A stretch of DNA of 64,000 bases. Source: Fidelibacterota bacterium (GTDB taxonomy: Bacteria > Pseudomonadota > Alphaproteobacteria > Rhodospirillales > Rhodospirillaceae). Location of the stretch: contig CANJMF010000008.1 of assembly GCA_947475895.1 (NCBI GenBank), positions 1-64,000 on the forward strand, written 5' to 3'. The notes under the pieces are model-generated. The model had not been told where the DNA came from. It searched no databases and saw nothing but the letters and a program-made list of their open reading frames with translations. Position 1 is the first letter of the stretch; every line of letters begins with the position of its first letter. A program made the translations under genes and the position numbers. This document shows, in pieces, positions 1-64,000 of the stretch.

Positions 1-84
1 AACTTGCCGGCCCTGTGCCAGCAGCACATCGACCTGCCGTAACTTCGCAACAATCTCTTCAGCTGTATGCCGCTTCCTTGCCAT
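1..84 (-). CDS. IS3-family transposase OrfA, N-terminal fragment
   Basis: Only the first 28 codons are in the window. The peptide starts MARKRHTAEEIVAKLRQVDV and continues VLLAQGRQV, which is the well-known N-terminal helix-turn-helix of IS3-family OrfA proteins. In this family OrfA binds the terminal repeats and joins OrfB by programmed frameshifting to make the active transposase. The ATG at 84 follows AAGGAGGATAGGACC, a strong ribosome site. The gene is cut by the window edge, so whether the element is intact cannot be judged. Confidence 0.8.
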   Translation of the reverse strand, partial: MARKRHTAEEIVAKLRQVDVLLAQGRQV

Positions 85-146
85 TGGTCCTATCCTCCTT
101 GTCAAAATCATACTTCAGGGAGGACCACTTCAAAGGGGGCAGATCA
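1..146 (-). mobile_element. IS3-family insertion sequence, one end only
   Basis: The first 146 bases look like the orfA-proximal end of an IS3-family element that continues beyond the window. Reading the minus strand, the end begins TGATCTGCCCCC, the kind of terminus common in this family, then about 60 bases of leader, a good ribosome site (AAGGAGGA) and the start of orfA. The element lies about 60 bases downstream of the metW stop codon and does not interrupt a recognisable gene. The exact border (taken as 146) and any target duplication cannot be confirmed because the other end is missing. Confidence 0.75.
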
Positions 147-208: not shown

Positions 209-826
209 TTAGCGGGTGAGAACGAAAACCGCTTGTTCACTGAAGAAATTGGCGTAAGGCGCCAAAGGACTAAAGCTGTGCGGAAGCCCCCGACCATCAA
301 GCGCGTATCCGCGTTCGATGCGGACGTTTAAGTGACGGCACAAATCGACGAAATCCAAAATCGTGCACAAATGAATGTTGGGCGTGTCGTACCAAGCATC
401 CGCCAGCGTGGGAGTTACCGGCATGCGCCCACCCAGGACAATCGAAAGCCGGATGCGCCAGTGTGCGAAATTAGGAAATGAAATGATTGCCCGCTTGCCA
501 ATACGTAAAAGTTGCTCAAGCACGTCCTTCGGCCGATGCGTCGCTTGAAGCGTTTGGCTGAGGATCGCGTAGTCAAAAGCACCGCTGGGATAGTCTTTAA
601 GATCGGCTTCCAAATTTCCTTGAATAACCGACAACCCCTGCGTAACGGCAGCGCGCACGCGTGCCATCGATAGTTCCAAGCCGCGTCCGTCTACTTGTTT
701 GTGCGCGCCTAAATAGGCAAGCAATGCGCCGTCGCCGCAGCCTACGTCGAGCACGCGGCTTCCGGCAGGAACGAGATCGGCGACCTGTTGCAGATCGACG
801 CGAATTTTCGGCGGTGTTTGCGTCAT
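209..826 (-). CDS. metW: Methionine biosynthesis protein MetW
   Basis: A 205-residue class I methyltransferase-fold protein. Residues 20-35 carry the SAM-binding motif ([12 protein letters not shown]), and the sequence through [15 protein letters not shown] to [16 protein letters not shown] is typical of MetW. MetW works together with MetX in homoserine acylation in several proteobacteria; its own catalytic activity is not well defined. It is the second gene of a metX-metW operon: its ATG overlaps the metX stop codon (ATGA), so translation is probably coupled. An IS3-family end sits just downstream. Confidence 0.93.
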
Positions 827-1992
827 GGCGTTGCCCGTCGCGGTAGGCCGCGAATGTTTGCCGCGCCGTCGATGAAGCCTTGCAGTGTGCTGCGGAATTC
901 GGGCTCATCCAGCAAGAAGGCGTCGTGACCTTTATCTGATTCGATTTCAACAAAGCTCACGTTTGCGGCGACCGCGTTTAAAGCGTGCGCGATGGTGCGG
1001 CTTTCCGATGTCGGGAATAGCCAGTCGGATGAAAACGAGATCAAGCAAAAGCGCACAGGCGTGCCGACGAAGGCATTCGACAACACGCCGCCGTTTTCTT
1101 CCGCCAAATCGAAGTAGTCCATCGCGCGTGTGATGTAGAGATACGAATTGGGATCGAAGCGGTCGACGAACGTATAGCCTTGGTGGCGTAGATAGCTTTC
1201 CACCTGGAAATCGGCATCGAAGCCATAGGTCAGCGCCGAACGATCCTGCAGTTTGCGACCGAATTTTCGGTGCAGCGCGGTTTCCGATAAATACGTGATG
1301 TGTGCCGCCATGCGTGCGACCGCGAGGCCGCGCTTCGGCATCGTTCCTTTTTCAAGATAGTCGCCGTGCTGCCAGTCGAGATCGGCCATGATCGCTTGGC
1401 GGCCGACTTCGTGGAACGCGATGTTCTGGGCCGAGTGGCGATAGGATCCGGCAATCGGTGCCGCGGCAAAAACGCGTTCCGGGAAACGATGCGCCCACTC
1501 CATCACTTGCATGGCGCCCATGGACCCGCCGACGACACAAAACACTTGCCCCACGCCTAAGTGATCAAGAAGGGCGGCTTGTGCCTGCACCATGTCGCGA
1601 ATTGTGATTACAGGAAACTTCAAGCCCCAAGGGTGCCCGGTTTCGGGATTGATCTCTTTGGGACCGGTCGACCCCATGCATCCGCCGAGTACATTGGCGC
1701 AGACGACAAAAAAGCGGTTGGTATCGAGCACACGGCCGGGACCAACGAGCGCGTCCCACCAGCCTGGGCGCCCGGTGATCGGGTGGGTGCCCGCGACAAA
1801 GTGATCGCCGGTCAGGGCATGGCAAACCAGCACGCAATTTGTGCCTTCCGCGTTCGATTGGCCGTAGGTTTGATACGCCATTGTGACCGGCGCCAACTTC
1901 GCGCCGGACTGCAGCACTAAAGGCGCTTTAATCGTAAGGCGAAACCCCGCCACAGCTTGTGTGGGTGCCGTTACCTGACTCTCAGTCGTCAT
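823..1992 (-). CDS. metX: Homoserine O-acyltransferase MetX
   Basis: A 389-residue alpha/beta-hydrolase-fold enzyme that acylates homoserine, the first committed step of methionine synthesis. The nucleophile elbow GGSMGAM places the catalytic serine near residue 157. The acid (SSDWLFP) and histidine ([13 protein letters not shown]) of the triad lie near the C terminus, and length fits the family. The family name is homoserine O-acetyltransferase, but some alphaproteobacterial MetX proteins use succinyl-CoA, and the partner MetZ elsewhere in the window is of the O-succinylhomoserine type, so acyl specificity is open. Overlaps metW by four bases. Confidence 0.93.
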
Positions 1993-2190: not shown

Positions 2191-5100
2191 ATGAAGAAAT
2201 ACGGAGTGGTCCGCGCGATCGGCCGAAAGCTAGCCCGGCTGGGCATGGATGAGTCGGGAGCTGCCGCTTTGATTTTGGCGGCGGCCATCATGACCATTGG
2301 TTTTACCGCCTTGGCCATTTTCCTCAATGCCAGCCTAAGCCAACATAAGCTGGACCGGGCGAAGGCGTCTGCCTCCGGATCTACGCGAATTTTTCAGGCC
2401 ATATATTCCTACTATCTTGCGGACACGGGGTCGGGGGCTCCCCATGCGCTGCCATGTCCGGACACGGCCCTGGTGCCGACGGGGCATGCCTCAGGCACGT
2501 GCGCTACGGCGGCCACGAACTATGTCGGTGCGCTGCCTTGGGCCGACTTGGGCCTGAGTCGTGCCGACGCCATCGACGCTTATGGCAACTTCTATACTTA
2601 TGTTGTTTCCGGAAGCGCCAACGGCGTCTGCGAAACAATTACAAAAGCCTCTGCGTATGGCGGTGGGCAGGAATTTACGGGGCGACTTCTTACGCCCACT
2701 CTTGAAGCAAGGCTGACCGACGCAGATGTCGGCGCGGGGCGCACGGTGCCCTTCGCGATTATTGGTCACGGCATCAATGGTACGGGCGCTTTGGGCCCCG
2801 GCGGCCGGTTCACCGCCGCGCCGACGTTGACTTTGGAACAAAACAATCAAGCCGGCGCCACTACTGTTTACGGAAGCGCGCCAACTACCATTTATACCGG
2901 CCCAACGGAAATAAGCGCGACCGCTAGCGAAACGTATTTCGACGACCAAGTCTTTATTCCCGCCACGACGGCATTGGAAAAAGTATGCGGACAACTTACG
3001 CCTGGCGGGTCGATAAATGCGACGCTGGGCGACAATTTTAATAACAACACCCAAAGTGCTGCCAGCTTCGGCAACATGGCCGCTACTGGCACTGGAACCA
3101 ATGGCGTCACGATTGGTAACTCGACCAGCGCTTCCGGCAATAAAGTCGCGCGCTTTACCGCGACGACGACAGGCGGTGGTGCTGCGACGTCGTATCTCGT
3201 CACCAATTCCACGAATTTTGATTTCACACCGTTGGTGCGGCCCGTCTACGTTTCAGCGAAATGGATTGCAGGATCCTCGAGTTTTTCGATTGCGACCCGC
3301 GGGACCGCGTCGCAACTCGTCGCCGGCACTGACACATTTACAGCTTCGGGAAACACGGGCGGTATTACGTTCCGCTTTGGGCAGGATGCGAGCCATAGCA
3401 TCGTTATCCTCAGAAACGGTGTCGACCTCGTCGTCACCCCAACCGTCACCGGCGGATTGTCGATCACGAGCGGCAATATTTATACGGTTGAAGTCTACGA
3501 TAACGGATCGGATGTCTGGGCGAGGATTACGAACGCCAATAACACGACCCAATATTCTACGGCTCGTGCTGCGAGCGTCACCGGCGTTACGTCGGGAAGC
3601 CAGGTATTCTTGATCAATGGCACCGCCTACAGCGAGCTTGATGACGTCACCATCGGCTTTCCTATGCTGGCAATGGAAACAACCGGCACCAATAGCTATG
3701 CGTCCGCGCCGGCCAATGGCGACAACGGTGTTTCCACGGGCCTTTTGACGCTTGAAGCGTGGGTGCGTCCGTTGGCTTTTCCGATAGGCACGAATAATGC
3801 AACGATTGTCGGAAAGTGGGACACCGACGCCGCCGTAGTGGCGGCGAATCAGGGATTTCGGCTGCGGATTGATTCAACGGGCACGCTTCGTTTCGATGCC
3901 TCCGTCGTGGATGCGGGGACTGCAGCCGTAAAGAGCTACGTCGGCCCGAGTTTGGTACGCGGTGAATGGGCGCATGTAGCGGTAACATTTGCCTTTAAAG
4001 ATACAGCGACCACCGACACCGAGACCGTGGCTTTTTTCAAGGATGGCGATCAGTATAGTTCCGTCACAGCAGGCGTTACGACGCCGACGGGAATCAATAA
4101 TACCACTGGCGGCAGCGTGCCGAGATTTGTTGTCGGCGCCGCCGTATTATCCGGCACGCCAGGGAGCGACGGTTTCACCGGCGACATTTCAGATGTCAGA
4201 GTATGGAGTGCTGCCCGCACGCCTCAAAATATCCGAGACAATTTTGAAGCGCGGCTATCAGCCGTTGCGGCTAGCCCATCGGTAGCGGATCTGGTGGTGA
4301 ATTGGCGGCTTGATTCCGAATCTCTGGGCGTATCCGGTTTTACATCGACGGCCGCTGTACGCACGCCGGCGAAGGGTGTTGCCGGCACGCTGACATCTGC
4401 GCTCTACATTCCAACAATTGCGCAATATTTTAGGCCGCTTTCCACGACATCGGGTTTTTGTCCGGCGTCTACTATAGCGGGCGCTTATCAATGTGATTTT
4501 CGTATTGCCAACTCGGGAGGCTTTACGGGTACGACCAATAGCATCACCATCCCTGCTAGTCTTACATCAGTCTACGCAAAGGTATGGGGCGCAGGGGGCG
4601 GCGCTTTCGACAGCACGACCACAAACGGAAATGATACCGGAGGTGGGAGCGGTGGATTCTCTCAGGGCCTCATCCAGTCCATCAATTCAACAGCCATCGC
4701 GAACCAAGTGCTCACGGTCTATGTGGGTGGCTACGGCACGCACAACTTCACCGACTTTACGGGCGGCGGCGGCGGCGGCGGTGCAGGTTCGGGTATTTAC
4801 TTCGGCACTTTTGCCGGGTTGGTCGCGGGTGGCGGCGGCGGCGGAAGTTTCAGCAATAGAGGCACCTGCCCTGGAACCGACATTGTTGCCTGCGGCCTCG
4901 GCGGTAACGGCGGTGGCGCGGGCGCTGCGGCCACGGCCTACGCTCCCGATAACAATCTTAACCTGGGCTGTGGAGGCCGCGGCGGCGACGACACAACGTC
5001 TGGTGTTGGGCCGCCAGGCAGCACTGCGAACTGCGCTAGCGGCGGCGGTAACCCAAGTGTTCATGCCGGTGGCGGCGGTTCGACAGGCAGTTCAGGTGGA

Positions 5101-5712
5101 AGCCCGGCCTTCATCGGCGGGGGCCGTGGCTATGACGGCACGACTGAAGGACTTAATCCGCCCGCAACCGCGATAGGCGGCGGCGGCGGCGGTGACAATG
5201 GTTTAGGCGCTGGTGGCGGCGAAGCCGGTGGTTTTCGCGACACTGTAGCCAGGGCCGGCTATGGCGGCGGCGGCGGAGCTGGAATTGCTGACGCCGGCGT
5301 GGCTAATGCGTCGGGCGAGGCAGGCAGCTATATCGCGTTGGATAGTACACGCACGGGCGATAAAACTAATAACTCGGCCGTAGTCATTAGCATTACGCCT
5401 GATCTTACCGGCGCCGGCTGGGTGGTGGGCGATCCTATCGAAGGCAACAATATACCTGCGTGTACGACCATTAAATCTATCGATTCCCTAACGCAGATAA
5501 CGTTGTCACAAAACGCCACCAACGGGAGCGTCGTCACGCTCAACGTTCCGCCAATTGCAAGTTCTAGGCCGGGTGGGGTGACCGATCACTATTACACACC
5601 GTCCTACTGGACGATTCCTGCCGGCTATCAATATCCGGCACGCGGGGGCACGAGAGGCGCGACCGGCAACTGCAATGATGGCGGTCCCGGCGCTGTCGTT
5701 CTGATCTGGTAG
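2191..5712 (+). CDS. Pseudopilin-like surface protein with LamG-like and polyglycine domains
   Basis: A 1173-residue protein, function unknown but modular. Residues 1-20 are basic; residues 21-48 (starting DESGAAALILAAAIM) form a hydrophobic helix like that of pilins or TadE/G proteins. Residues 50-280 contain LPCPDT, GALPWADLGL and DAYGNFYTYVV, a pattern seen in pseudopilin-like proteins. Residues about 290-490 look like a beta-rich jelly-roll domain, and 490-690 match a LamG/concanavalin A-like domain (LEAWVRP, GEWAHVAVTF, ISDVRVWSAARTP). Residues 775-1075 are glycine-rich with G5-G7 runs, opening with VWGAGGG, like polyglycine tip domains. The end is GGPGAVVLIW. A surface adhesin presented on a pilus or T2SS-like machine is an inference. 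The gene stands alone. Confidence 0.75.
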   Translation: MKKYGVVRAIGRKLARLGMDESGAAALILAAAIMTIGFTALAIFLNASLSQHKLDRAKASASGSTRIFQAIYSYYLADTGSGAPHALPCPDTALVPTGHASGTCATAATNYVGALPWADLGLSRADAIDAYGNFYTYVVSGSANGVCETITKASAYGGGQEFTGRLLTPTLEARLTDADVGAGRTVPFAIIGHGINGTGALGPGGRFTAAPTLTLEQNNQAGATTVYGSAPTTIYTGPTEISATASETYFDDQVFIPATTALEKVCGQLTPGGSINATLGDNFNNNTQSAASFGNMAATGTGTNGVTIGNSTSASGNKVARFTATTTGGGAATSYLVTNSTNFDFTPLVRPVYVSAKWIAGSSSFSIATRGTASQLVAGTDTFTASGNTGGITFRFGQDASHSIVILRNGVDLVVTPTVTGGLSITSGNIYTVEVYDNGSDVWARITNANNTTQYSTARAASVTGVTSGSQVFLINGTAYSELDDVTIGFPMLAMETTGTNSYASAPANGDNGVSTGLLTLEAWVRPLAFPIGTNNATIVGKWDTDAAVVAANQGFRLRIDSTGTLRFDASVVDAGTAAVKSYVGPSLVRGEWAHVAVTFAFKDTATTDTETVAFFKDGDQYSSVTAGVTTPTGINNTTGGSVPRFVVGAAVLSGTPGSDGFTGDISDVRVWSAARTPQNIRDNFEARLSAVAASPSVADLVVNWRLDSESLGVSGFTSTAAVRTPAKGVAGTLTSALYIPTIAQYFRPLSTTSGFCPASTIAGAYQCDFRIANSGGFTGTTNSITIPASLTSVYAKVWGAGGGAFDSTTTNGNDTGGGSGGFSQGLIQSINSTAIANQVLTVYVGGYGTHNFTDFTGGGGGGGAGSGIYFGTFAGLVAGGGGGGSFSNRGTCPGTDIVACGLGGNGGGAGAAATAYAPDNNLNLGCGGRGGDDTTSGVGPPGSTANCASGGGNPSVHAGGGGSTGSSGGSPAFIGGGRGYDGTTEGLNPPATAIGGGGGGDNGLGAGGGEAGGFRDTVARAGYGGGGGAGIADAGVANASGEAGSYIALDSTRTGDKTNNSAVVISITPDLTGAGWVVGDPIEGNNIPACTTIKSIDSLTQITLSQNATNGSVVTLNVPPIASSRPGGVTDHYYTPSYWTIPAGYQYPARGGTRGATGNCNDGGPGAVVLIW

Positions 5713-5800: not shown

Positions 5801-6901
5801 ATGTCAGCACCCCAACCCAATGCCTGGGTTTTGGATATTCCGCTCTACGAACCAGGCAAGTCCCAGGTGCGTGGGGTGTCGCGCGTCATCAAGCTCTCGT
5901 CCAATGAAGCGGCCCTTGGGCCCAGCCCGAAAGCCGTCGCAGCGTATAACGAAGGCGCGAATTCGCTCGTGCGTTATCCGATCGGAACGTCGCCTGAGTT
6001 GAAGGCGGCGTTGGCGGAAGTTCACGGCATCGAAGCCGACCAGATCATCTGCGGTTTGGGCTCCGACGAGATTATCGGTTTCCTCAGCCGTGCTTACGCT
6101 GGGCCGGGCGATGAGATCGTGCATACCGTGCACGGGTTCGCGATGTATCCGATTTACGCGCGCAGCGTCGGCGCAACGCCGGTGTCCGTTCCGGAAACTA
6201 ATCTCACGACGGATGTCGATGCGATCCTGGCGGGCATCACGGCGAAGACCAAAATGGTTTTCATTGCCAACCCAAACAATCCGACCGGCACGTATCTGCC
6301 GGCCGCCGAGCTCACGCGCTTGCGCGCTGAGTTGCGCGAGGACGTGATTTTGGTGGTGGACGAGGCTTACGCCGAATTCGCCGATGCGCCGGATTTTCAA
6401 AGTGCGATTGCGCTCGCGAAGGCCACCAATAACACCGTCGTCATGCGCACGTTTTCAAAAATCCACGGCCTCGCGGCTTTGCGCGTGGGTTGGGGGTATG
6501 GCCACAAAGCTATTATCGATGCGCTGGAACGCCTGCGTGCGCCGTTCAATGTGTCGCGCCCCGCGCAGTTGGCGGCGGCTGCGTCGATGCGCGACCGCGC
6601 GCACATCGAGCGGGCGCAAGCGCATAACGCGAAGTGGCGAAGCATTGCGCTGCAACGTTTGCGCGGGCTTGGTTTGAACGTCGCCGATAGCGCTGCGAAT
6701 TTCGTGTTGCCGGAATTTCCAACGACGCCCGGCCGCACCGCTGCCGATGCCGACGCCTTTTTGCAATCGCAGGGCCTTATCGTGCGGCGCGTCGCCAACT
6801 ACGGCCTGCCCAATCACTTGCGTATTACCTTGGGTAACGACGAGGAGATGACGGCTGTCCTCGACGCATTGACCGTCTTCATGGAGCAACGTCATGGCTA
6901 A
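5801..6901 (+). CDS. hisC: Histidinol-phosphate aminotransferase
   Basis: A 366-residue fold-type I PLP enzyme that transaminates imidazole-acetol phosphate in histidine synthesis; relatives also act on aromatic 2-oxo acids. Visible motifs are KLSSNEAALGPSP at the N terminus, ANPNNPTGTY for PLP and substrate binding, VVDEAYAEF, and TFSKIHGLAALRVGWGYG with the Schiff-base lysine. It overlaps the prephenate dehydrogenase gene by eight bases; this hisC-tyrA pairing is common in alphaproteobacteria and suggests the enzyme may also serve tyrosine and phenylalanine synthesis. Confidence 0.93.
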   Translation: MSAPQPNAWVLDIPLYEPGKSQVRGVSRVIKLSSNEAALGPSPKAVAAYNEGANSLVRYPIGTSPELKAALAEVHGIEADQIICGLGSDEIIGFLSRAYAGPGDEIVHTVHGFAMYPIYARSVGATPVSVPETNLTTDVDAILAGITAKTKMVFIANPNNPTGTYLPAAELTRLRAELREDVILVVDEAYAEFADAPDFQSAIALAKATNNTVVMRTFSKIHGLAALRVGWGYGHKAIIDALERLRAPFNVSRPAQLAAAASMRDRAHIERAQAHNAKWRSIALQRLRGLGLNVADSAANFVLPEFPTTPGRTAADADAFLQSQGLIVRRVANYGLPNHLRITLGNDEEMTAVLDALTVFMEQRHG

Positions 6902-61321: not shown

Positions 61322-62080
61322 CTATTTAGATTTAGGTTTGTGTGATTTGGGCGGCGGCGGCGCGTCGACCGCTATCGTCTCCAGAGGCGGAGGACCGCCG
61401 GCACCTGGATCGCCCGGCTCCCACAGAATCTCGCGGTTCGCAATGAGCTTAATGAGATTCTGTTCGGCGACCGCATTCCTGCCCCGACTATTGTTGCGTC
61501 GATACCAATACGCCGCGGCCTTGGGGTTGCGCGGCGTGCCGTAACCCATTTGATATGCATATCCCAGCATAAGTTCCGCGGGCGGGTAGCCGCTGTCTGC
61601 GGCATGCCAGAAATAAGTAAACGCAGACTCCCAGCTTGCTTGAATGCCGCCTTCTCCTTGGTAAATCATTTTCCCCAGCATGTATTGAGCGGCCGGGTGT
61701 CCTTGATCGGCGGCGGTTTCATAAAACAGCACCGCACGCGCCTCGTCCTTAGGCACGCCGATTCCTGTCTGGTGGATGAGGCCCAGATAGAAAGCAGCGT
61801 CCGGATCTTTCTTTTCGGCGGCGTCGCGCAGCAGCTCCAGAGACTTCGTTAGATTGGCGGGCACTCCATCGCCGCGCCCATAACGGGCGCCAAGCTCGGC
61901 CTGTGCGTGCAGATCGCCGTTGGCCATCCGTTGCTCAAGCTCAACAACGGAGAGCGTGTCCACAACACGGCTGTGTTGCAGTTCGGCTGCCGACCGAGTC
62001 TCCGCGATCGCTGCGCCCGCTAAAGTCGAGGCTCCCAGCAGCGCTGCACCGAAATATATAATATGACGCGATATTGTCAT
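61322..62080 (-). CDS. Sel1-repeat (TPR-like) periplasmic protein
   Basis: A 252-residue protein with a signal peptide (cleavage near AIAETR) and four Sel1 repeats between about residues 60 and 205: AQAELGARYGRGDGVPANL, AAFYLGLIHQTGIGVPKDE, AAQYMLGKMIYQGEGGIQA, and AELMLGYAYQMGYGTPRNP. The tail is proline-rich (PPPKSHKPKSK). Sel1 proteins are scaffolds. Its ATG overlaps the secretin stop (TAATG), so it probably works with that secretion or pilus system. Confidence 0.85.
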   Translation of the reverse strand: MTISRHIIYFGAALLGASTLAGAAIAETRSAAELQHSRVVDTLSVVELEQRMANGDLHAQAELGARYGRGDGVPANLTKSLELLRDAAEKKDPDAAFYLGLIHQTGIGVPKDEARAVLFYETAADQGHPAAQYMLGKMIYQGEGGIQASWESAFTYFWHAADSGYPPAELMLGYAYQMGYGTPRNPKAAAYWYRRNNSRGRNAVAEQNLIKLIANREILWEPGDPGAGGPPPLETIAVDAPPPPKSHKPKSK

Positions 62081-64000
62081 TATTGCTCTGCCTTACCTTT
62101 CTTGTCTTTGGTCGCATCCGCATCCTTCGTACTTGTCGAAGCGGGCTGAGCCCACTCTCCGAGCTGATTGCGGAAATTGTCGCGAATCTGTCGCGCCGTA
62201 TCGGAATTATCGATGATGTAAGGCGTTAACAGGATGATCAATTCGGTGCGATTAATGGATTGAGATTGGTTCTTAAACAAATTCCCGAGGAATGGAATGT
62301 CCTTCAAGTAAGGGATGCCGGTGTTCCCCTTACTATAGTTTTCGGAAATCATTCCTCCCAAGAGAACGGTTTCGCCGTCATCAAGCGACAGGGTTGTTTG
62401 CAGCGACCGATTGATGATAACCGGACTTTGTACGCCCGATAAACTGTTCTCCTGAGCCGCACTCACTTCCTGCGATACGGTCAACTCTACGCGCCGGCTC
62501 GAATTGACGGTCGGATTCACGTTCAGGAGAACACCTGTATTCCGGTATTGAATAGATTGCAGGATCGAGGTGTTGCCTTGAACTTGGCCATTTGCCGTCT
62601 CTTGCGATGTGATAATCGGTACCTGCGTGCCGACGTTGATAGCAGCGGATTTTCCGCTACTCGTGACAAGCCGTGGGCTCGAAAGTACCTGCAGGCGATT
62701 GTAGTCGGCCAGCGCGTTTACTCTCGAGATAATGGTCGCGTGATCTCGAACCAAGTTGAAGAATATGCCGGTTCCATCACTCTTCGCGGTTAGATTATTC
62801 GGTGCGCTCGCGCGCCGGTCGTCGAAATCGAAAACCATGCCGAGACTCTCGCCCTGCTTAAGCGTGACTTCGGCGATCGTTGCTTCGATCATGACCTGCA
62901 GAGGCGCGCGGTCCATTTGTTGGATGAGAGCCTTGAATTGCGCGAATTCCTCGGCCGAACCCACAAAAATAATGCCGTTGCGCGGCTCGTCCACCAACAC
63001 GCGCTGCTTTGCTGCGCCCAAAAGCGTGCGCTGATCTGCGGGCGGCGCTCCGGCCCCCACCGATGCCGCCGGCGTCGCCACCACGCCATCAATCATGTTC
63101 TTGAGCGTATCGGCGACGTCCTTCGCTTTGGCGTTATAAATTTGCTGATAGTAAGCGCCCTGGCTGCTCACAATTTGGCTGGGCTGATCGAGTTCCCCGG
63201 CCCACTGCAGAAGGTGCTGTAAGGTTTCCTCGTTGGAGCCGAATGCAATGACAACGTTCAACGCATCGACCGGGATCAATTTAATGGCGGTGTTGTTGGT
63301 GCCGCCAACGCCAATGCTGTAGCCTTCCGCGCTCATAATCTCGATCAGCTGCTGCGATAATTTCGCGGCGCTCCAAAAGGCGGGCGATATTTTCAGGCTC
63401 TTGCGCCCCGCAAGATATGGTTGGTCGAGTGTTTGAATGATTTCGCTGGCGGAGCGAACGTCCTCCGAGTTGCCCAGAAGCAACAATCCGCTGGATCCGG
63501 GAATCGGCGCGAATAGCACGCGATCCTTCATGATGAGATCCATCCAGATCTGCATCACATTGACAGCAACAGCGTTGAGCGGTTGGAAGAAAAAGATTGG
63601 ACGCATGTCGGCGGGGGTCGACGGGGCGGTCCGCGAGCGGATGATGCGCGGAATTGGCTTCTTGACGCTCGCCGCCTCGACTACGCGGTAAACATTGTTG
63701 CTGTAGGCAACGGTTAATCCGTAATTACTAAGAACTTCGGTTACGAGACGAAAGAAATCGTCCGGCTTCAACGGATCCGCCGTGCGAAGGGTAACCATTT
63801 GGTCCTTCTGCATGACGGAGTTGTCGATTTCGAACGAGACCTTCAGCACCTCGCCAAAAATAGTGTTGACGAAGGCGGGGAGGCGAATCCCCTCGAAGTT
63901 GACGCTAATAGGTTCACCCGTCAAATGCGGCGGGGTGGTGGACAGAATGGGCTCGGCGCTATCACGTCCCAATGGCGGAGCCGGGCCGTTGGATGTTGTC
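62080..64000 (-). CDS. GspD/PilQ-family secretin, 5' end beyond the window
   Basis: The C-terminal 639 codons of a secretin; the frame is open to the window edge, where it reads a proline-rich linker. N1/N2-type domains appear (ISVNFEGIRLPAFVNTIFGEVL, ILKPSSGLLLLGNSEDV-like GSSGLLLLGNSED), then the secretin core ending VLLGGMISENYSKGNTG, IPYLKDIPFLGNLFKN and TELIILLTPYIIDN, the GspD signature. It forms an outer-membrane channel for type II secretion or a type IV pilus. No other Gsp gene is in the window. Could serve the pseudopilin-like protein at 2191-5712, but nothing proves it. Confidence 0.9.
   Translation of the reverse strand, partial: TTSNGPAPPLGRDSAEPILSTTPPHLTGEPISVNFEGIRLPAFVNTIFGEVLKVSFEIDNSVMQKDQMVTLRTADPLKPDDFFRLVTEVLSNYGLTVAYSNNVYRVVEAASVKKPIPRIIRSRTAPSTPADMRPIFFFQPLNAVAVNVMQIWMDLIMKDRVLFAPIPGSSGLLLLGNSEDVRSASEIIQTLDQPYLAGRKSLKISPAFWSAAKLSQQLIEIMSAEGYSIGVGGTNNTAIKLIPVDALNVVIAFGSNEETLQHLLQWAGELDQPSQIVSSQGAYYQQIYNAKAKDVADTLKNMIDGVVATPAASVGAGAPPADQRTLLGAAKQRVLVDEPRNGIIFVGSAEEFAQFKALIQQMDRAPLQVMIEATIAEVTLKQGESLGMVFDFDDRRASAPNNLTAKSDGTGIFFNLVRDHATIISRVNALADYNRLQVLSSPRLVTSSGKSAAINVGTQVPIITSQETANGQVQGNTSILQSIQYRNTGVLLNVNPTVNSSRRVELTVSQEVSAAQENSLSGVQSPVIINRSLQTTLSLDDGETVLLGGMISENYSKGNTGIPYLKDIPFLGNLFKNQSQSINRTELIILLTPYIIDNSDTARQIRDNFRNQLGEWAQPASTSTKDADATKDKKGKAEQ

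Follow-up and report, generated by a model that had tools for sequence, protein, structure and literature searches.

Which machine, if any, displays a giant pilin-like adhesin in a bacterium whose pilus locus seems to have been lost? The question is raised by P0001, a protein encoded near the start of contig CANJMF010000008.1 (C8) of assembly GCA_947475895.1 (genome G000). The window, meaning the whole stretch analysed, comprises the first 64,000 nucleotides of this contig. P0001 is probably a modular minor pilin without the glutamate at position +5 (Glu5), cut after Gly23 and located in a type IV filament, at its tip or close to it, with its adhesin outside. In one open reading frame, a head of pilin type is followed by two lectin-fold domains in tandem and by a glycine-rich end. 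The frame encodes an intact protein of 1173 aa (2191-5712, plus strand; ATG start, zero internal stops), with the following parts:

2191..2259, plus strand: leader peptide, residues 1-23, ending in DESG, with a prepilin-peptidase cut predicted after Gly23
2260..3024, plus strand: pilin head, residues 24-278, a long N-terminal helix and a beta domain with LPCPD and DAYGN
3010..3663, plus strand: lectin-fold domain 1, about residues 274-491, legume-lectin/concanavalin-like and invisible to Pfam
3679..4434, plus strand: lectin-fold domain 2, about residues 497-748, LamG/pentraxin-like
4453..5709, plus strand: C-terminal beta and glycine-rich domain, residues 755-1173, with GAVVLIW as last residues

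The original prediction had described a pilin-like hydrophobic N-terminus with LPCPD and DAYGN, a LamG domain and a glycine-rich region with VWGAGGG. All were recovered in the intact frame; the lectin-fold domain between head and LamG had been overlooked. Lectin-fold domain 2 matched Pfam Laminin_G_3 (PF13385) over residues 499-681 (E 2.6e-15, 57.3 bits vs a cut-off of 27.6). Residues 785-1173 contained 26.5% Gly (103/389), compared with 10-12% in the three preceding modules. The TadG-like label given to the N-terminus did not hold: neither TadE/TadG nor Tad was matched in Pfam, even at E up to 1, and an ATPase profile search of the genome detected no CpaF-type ATPase.

For the glycine-rich end, structure-model confidence was low, phmmer against the PDB gave 0 matches, and P0001 had no match to PF21722 (Gly_rich_2) at E<=1, the relative L064 falling just short of the cut-off (23.8 vs 24.3 bits). 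We presume a resemblance to phage polyglycine adhesins. A terminal Trp was found in 14 of the 16 four-module proteins, including P0001; of the other two, L005 ends at a contig end and L015 has another ending. Searches with P0001 found nothing in NCBIfam or PHROGs, although two pieces gave weak PHROGs families of unknown function. A sigma-70 promoter scan returned 3 sites vs 2.0 expected, none of them 5' of the P0001 start.

The arrangement of modules is not accidental, because there are 14 homologues that align along their length and are 33-53% identical to P0001, and the module order recurs. A P0001 match was present in 25 of 61 genomes, its own included, and a head-profile match in 38 of the 73 family genomes analysed. 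The family is presumably alphaproteobacterial. The four-module gene was counted in 17/73, a count that includes copies in G002 and G009 ending at contig ends (three modules at most visible) and an interrupted copy in G010. In other family members the same head bears differing C-termini. Of the 17 four-module genomes, 11 had a head-bearing copy <=1.2 kb from gloA or dnaJ; metX and hisC flank P0001. Directly adjoining the giant gene in G001, G012, G014, G010 and G002 was a FecR-domain protein of 610-637 aa if complete (L037:11817-13649, L041:5863-7719, L043:6205-8118, L035:3-1076, L014:1917-3176), possibly bearing an outer-membrane barrel (one weak Alginate_exp match). Next to a giant head gene, and divergent from it, a short one without Glu5 was seen at L139:4846-9350 and at L141:4002-8602; the two are possibly a two-subunit tip pair.

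Is the head a pilin? The hydrophobic N-terminal stretch follows D-E-S-G, the Gly at -1 (Gly23) was invariant across the 10 heads of alignment A1, and most large head proteins had a similar acidic ...G^[VA]A pattern. The head was homologous to canonical GFTLIE prepilins, several of which aligned over most of it. Homology of the pilin module to true prepilins was present on sequence and modestly on fold, and the extra C-terminal domains (Laminin_G_3, lectin folds) are not specific to pilus biology. With Foldseek, the full P0001 model matched 7oa8, the PilC of S. sanguinis.

Several points weigh against this assignment. Leader, Gly-1 and hydrophobic stretch are present but Glu5 is absent, neither Pfam N_methyl nor NCBIfam GFxxxE was matched at E<=1, and the fold matches were weak. 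Foldseek with the head gave 6 matches at E<=10 and 0 at E<=0.001, by itself no support for a pilin fold. The modest fold support came from a structure comparison covering 37 chains, so that a pilin family missing from its list is no evidence. A PDB profile search with the head was uninformative, its 13 sequences at E<=1 being designed proteins throughout (12 Pizza propellers and a helical repeat). On the rival view, P0001 would be a periplasmic lectin with an inner-membrane anchor, and its helix and DAYGN loop would be pilin-like by chance. We regard this as very improbable, in view of the homology to GFTLIE prepilins, the invariant Gly at -1 and the head genes in every genome with an ATPase of the class of PilB, the motor of the type IV pilus (T4P).

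The absence of Glu5 followed protein size. Glu at +5 was found in 0 of 28 readable head proteins of >=500 residues (35 in total, 7 without a readable N-terminus) and in 20/31 shorter ones. In a tree of 55 heads, a branch (97/85) parted all 16 Glu5-bearing heads and two Glu5-less ones from 37 others, none with Glu5. Of the 66 head rows, 55 entered the tree. Those excluded were six chosen by name, all off-frame or partial apart from the readable 610-aa row of L069, and five in which <150 head positions were covered; the tree's label "four" marks any row carrying the first lectin block. According to PMC10191384, the subunit that caps a tip complex lacks Glu5, and PMC9934059 applies the absence-of-Glu5 argument to PilA. 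Because Glu5 is absent from P0001 and from such capping subunits, we place P0001 tentatively at the tip. Prepilin peptidase would cut it after Gly23, the head would be incorporated into a type IV filament, at the tip or next to it, and the C-terminus of ~890 residues would be displayed extracellularly and bind glycans. The proposal of a minor pilin with a large adhesin at a filament tip thus gained support from prepilin homology, from genome co-occurrence and, modestly, from the structure model; modest matches to a pilin-like fold and an association of the homologues with pilus or type II secretion system (T2SS) genes were both found.

The usual machine of the head family is the type IV pilus. 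Head genes occurred in 20/20 PilB-class genomes vs 18/53 others (p 8.6e-8), and outside the genus in 15/15 vs 7/39 (p 2e-8); for the GspE class the numbers were 23/31 vs 15/42 (p 0.0019). The head search behind these counts takes in short prepilins of T4P loci, which biases them toward PilB. The ATPase classes were assigned by PF00437 bit scores and coverage, without a tree. G023 and G090, with odd or fragmentary ATPase matches, are in neither class (G023 as PilB would give 20/21), G091 is classed as PilB though one match could be GspE, and a GspE fragment in G003 was counted as GspE. The genomes are related, so that the p values are not independent and relatedness confounds all comparisons, and several genomes are incomplete. 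A T2SSF-family protein was detected in 24/25 genomes with a P0001 match (the exception being G018) vs 23/36 without one in the 61-genome set; this family covers GspF, PilC and TadB/C alike.

The four-module gene gave a different picture. It was present in 9/20 genomes with vs 8/53 without PilB (p 0.012), and in 15/31 with vs 2/42 without GspE (p 3e-5). Put the other way, a GspE-class ATPase was found in 15/17 four-module genomes vs 16/56 others (p 3e-5). Could the T2SS then be the working machine, with P0001 serving in place of GspK at the pseudopilus tip and its adhesin being presented through GspD? This would account for the persistence of large members where no PilB was found. The gene repertoire of G000 points the same way. 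Its T2SS cluster includes one feature in the window:

62080..64000, continuing to 64191 of contig C8, minus strand: gspD secretin of the chromosomal T2SS (Pfam Secretin, E 1.6e-46)

The GspD-type secretin noted earlier at the end of the window is therefore real, and its cluster extends on the same contig to gspE at ~89 kb. GspD, E, F, G and K were recognized by Pfam, and H, I, J, L and M were named from gene order. The single ATPase above the Pfam cut-off (C8:87208, GspE score class) is the gspE of this cluster. In G000 a T2SSF protein and a secretin each occur once and A24 peptidases twice, while the N_methyl matches, at four places, all lie within the cluster. The GspK of G000 (PF03934 and PF21687) likewise lacks Glu5. 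Between gspF and gspE there is a row of large proteins whose N-termini look TPR-like by eye (C8:72927-87153; L002, L070), and gspF is adjoined by a possible secreted substrate, 507 aa long and starting in a signal-like stretch (C8:71120-72643; L002). Elsewhere, G005 C18, G009 C1, G019 C17, G026 C285 and G004 C1 were seen to carry an additional ATPase together with a T2SSF protein and a secretin; this ATPase is distinct and scores higher, and the set looks like a second T2SS-type system.

Even so, we hold it unlikely that the T2SS is the machine. Both GspE and the four-module gene cluster in a single genus, where p is 0.058 for GspE and 0.045 for PilB, and the whole head family tracks PilB better. 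G067 and G024 have the gene without a GspE match, though G024 does have GspD-type and T2SSF matches. P0001 is also unlinked to the T2SS operon; membership in the GspD operon was rejected, as the two lie 56 kb apart and the head family, taken whole, follows PilB more closely. The link to the GspD cluster put forward originally is accordingly weakened for the head family, while the four-module gene does have its smaller p with GspE. Interrupted four-module copies occurred only in genomes without PilB (3/8 vs 0/9 with it, p 0.08), as if the gene decayed without T4P.

If the pilus is the usual machine, what happened to it in G000? The surroundings of P0001 offer an answer:

1..146, strand not assigned: end of a repeated element at the contig start; contigs C20, C26, C6 and C5 each begin with an identical copy
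209-826, minus strand: metW (Pfam MetW)
823-1992, minus strand: gene which we take to be metX (Pfam Abhydrolase_1)
5801..6901, plus strand: class I/II aminotransferase (Pfam), hisC-like by name only, an ordinary neighbour 88 bases 3' of the P0001 gene

The earlier view that P0001 has no operon partners is right apart from the hisC-like gene on the same strand, which had been overlooked; metX is divergent. The element at 1..146 is probably an insertion sequence and marks a probable breakpoint of a lost T4P locus. At its end, contig C20 encodes an ExeA-like AAA protein and a PilD-type peptidase, together with an open frame of 413 residues. Over 406 columns, this frame is 54% identical to the initial part of a T4P secretin of 660 residues in G026. 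The stop of this frame lies 145 bases from the contig end, inside a repeat found at six places of the genome with 100% identity (one over 124 bases only). With tblastn, one alignment ends at the stop codon and another goes 72 bases beyond, which we took as a chance extension. That G000 never had T4P was dropped as an explanation, since C20 ends inside a T4P secretin. The window begins with a different repeated end, followed by metW. By BLAST, the order in G018 (L050) is PilT, PilT, short prepilin, methyltransferase-like gene, metW, metX, hisC, and in G008 (L051) PilD-type peptidase, short prepilin, methyltransferase-like gene, metW, metX, hisC. The gene before metW is presumably methyltransferase-like; it had no match at the window start. 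L051 (G008 C15) retains the peptidase and one prepilin, and L050 (G018 C80) has PilT without a PilB match; both are apparent T4P remnants, as if T4P had been lost repeatedly in the genus.

We infer that, beside P0001, a repeat-bounded deletion removed most of a T4P locus, though the multi-copy repeats of this fragmented assembly preclude proof. Because this locus appears largely deleted, P0001 would today be either stranded or borne by the T2SS pseudopilus. That it is a stranded relic, intact only through recent T4P loss and functionless in the inner membrane, is possible but doubtful. The repeat ends at both apparent breakpoints fit this, as do in-frame stops in G009, G010 and one of two G089 copies, all in genomes without a PilB match. 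Yet the P0001 frame is intact over 1173 codons, the copies of G003, G005, G013, G024 and the other one of G089 are uninterrupted despite no PilB match, as far as the contigs show, and the T4P loss is itself deduced from a fragmented assembly. The preferred reading of P0001 as a Glu5-less minor pilin of type IV filaments accommodates either present state. That the family consists of Glu5-less tip pilins which the standard prepilin motif does not detect, with swappable giant adhesins and usable by the T2SS pseudopilus after pilus loss, seems quite unlikely to us; if true, a secretion machine becomes an attachment organelle. Some relatives have T4P genes and others lack them, and most carry T2SS genes, so that they could show which machine displays the adhesin.

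How does P0001 compare with known systems? Among the titles listed in a literature search whose coverage left out most subscription journals, there was no paper on a protein joining a type IV pilin, LamG and a glycine-rich domain. The nearest parallels are PilC (PMC9934059) and PilB (PMC8179133) of S. sanguinis, in which a pilin module carries a concanavalin-like lectin or a vWA domain, thought to sit at the pilus tip. P0001 is alike, but has two lectin-fold domains and a glycine-rich end at about twice the length, lacks the Glu5 of PilC, and belongs to a genome whose pilus locus is apparently gone. GspK of G000 resembles P0001 in being Glu5-less, large and expected at a pseudopilus tip. In GspK, however, the additional domain interrupts the sheet of the pilin fold (PMC8179133), whereas those of P0001 are C-terminal, with no match to PF03934 or PF21687 (T2SSK), and G000 has its own GspK besides P0001. 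KilN and TadG (PMC12075869) are likewise minor pilins of large size that sit at a filament end and have modular domains in their C-terminal part, but the Tad/Kil systems are a different pilus class, and the TadE/TadG matches and CpaF-type ATPase are missing here. With glycine-rich domains of the PF21722 type, P0001 shares a VWGAGGG-like opening, glycine runs and a hydrophobic last strand.

PF13385 is already among the frequent modular-pilin domains in the published survey (PMC8179133). Unlike those modular pilins, P0001 lacks the N_methyl (IPR012902-type) motif underlying the survey, which would therefore miss a Glu5-less branch with a multi-domain adhesin C-terminus. We describe P0001 as working like a modular pilin, on a homologous Glu5-less branch outside the published N_methyl-defined set. 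This branch makes a clear prediction, that Glu5-less means tip.
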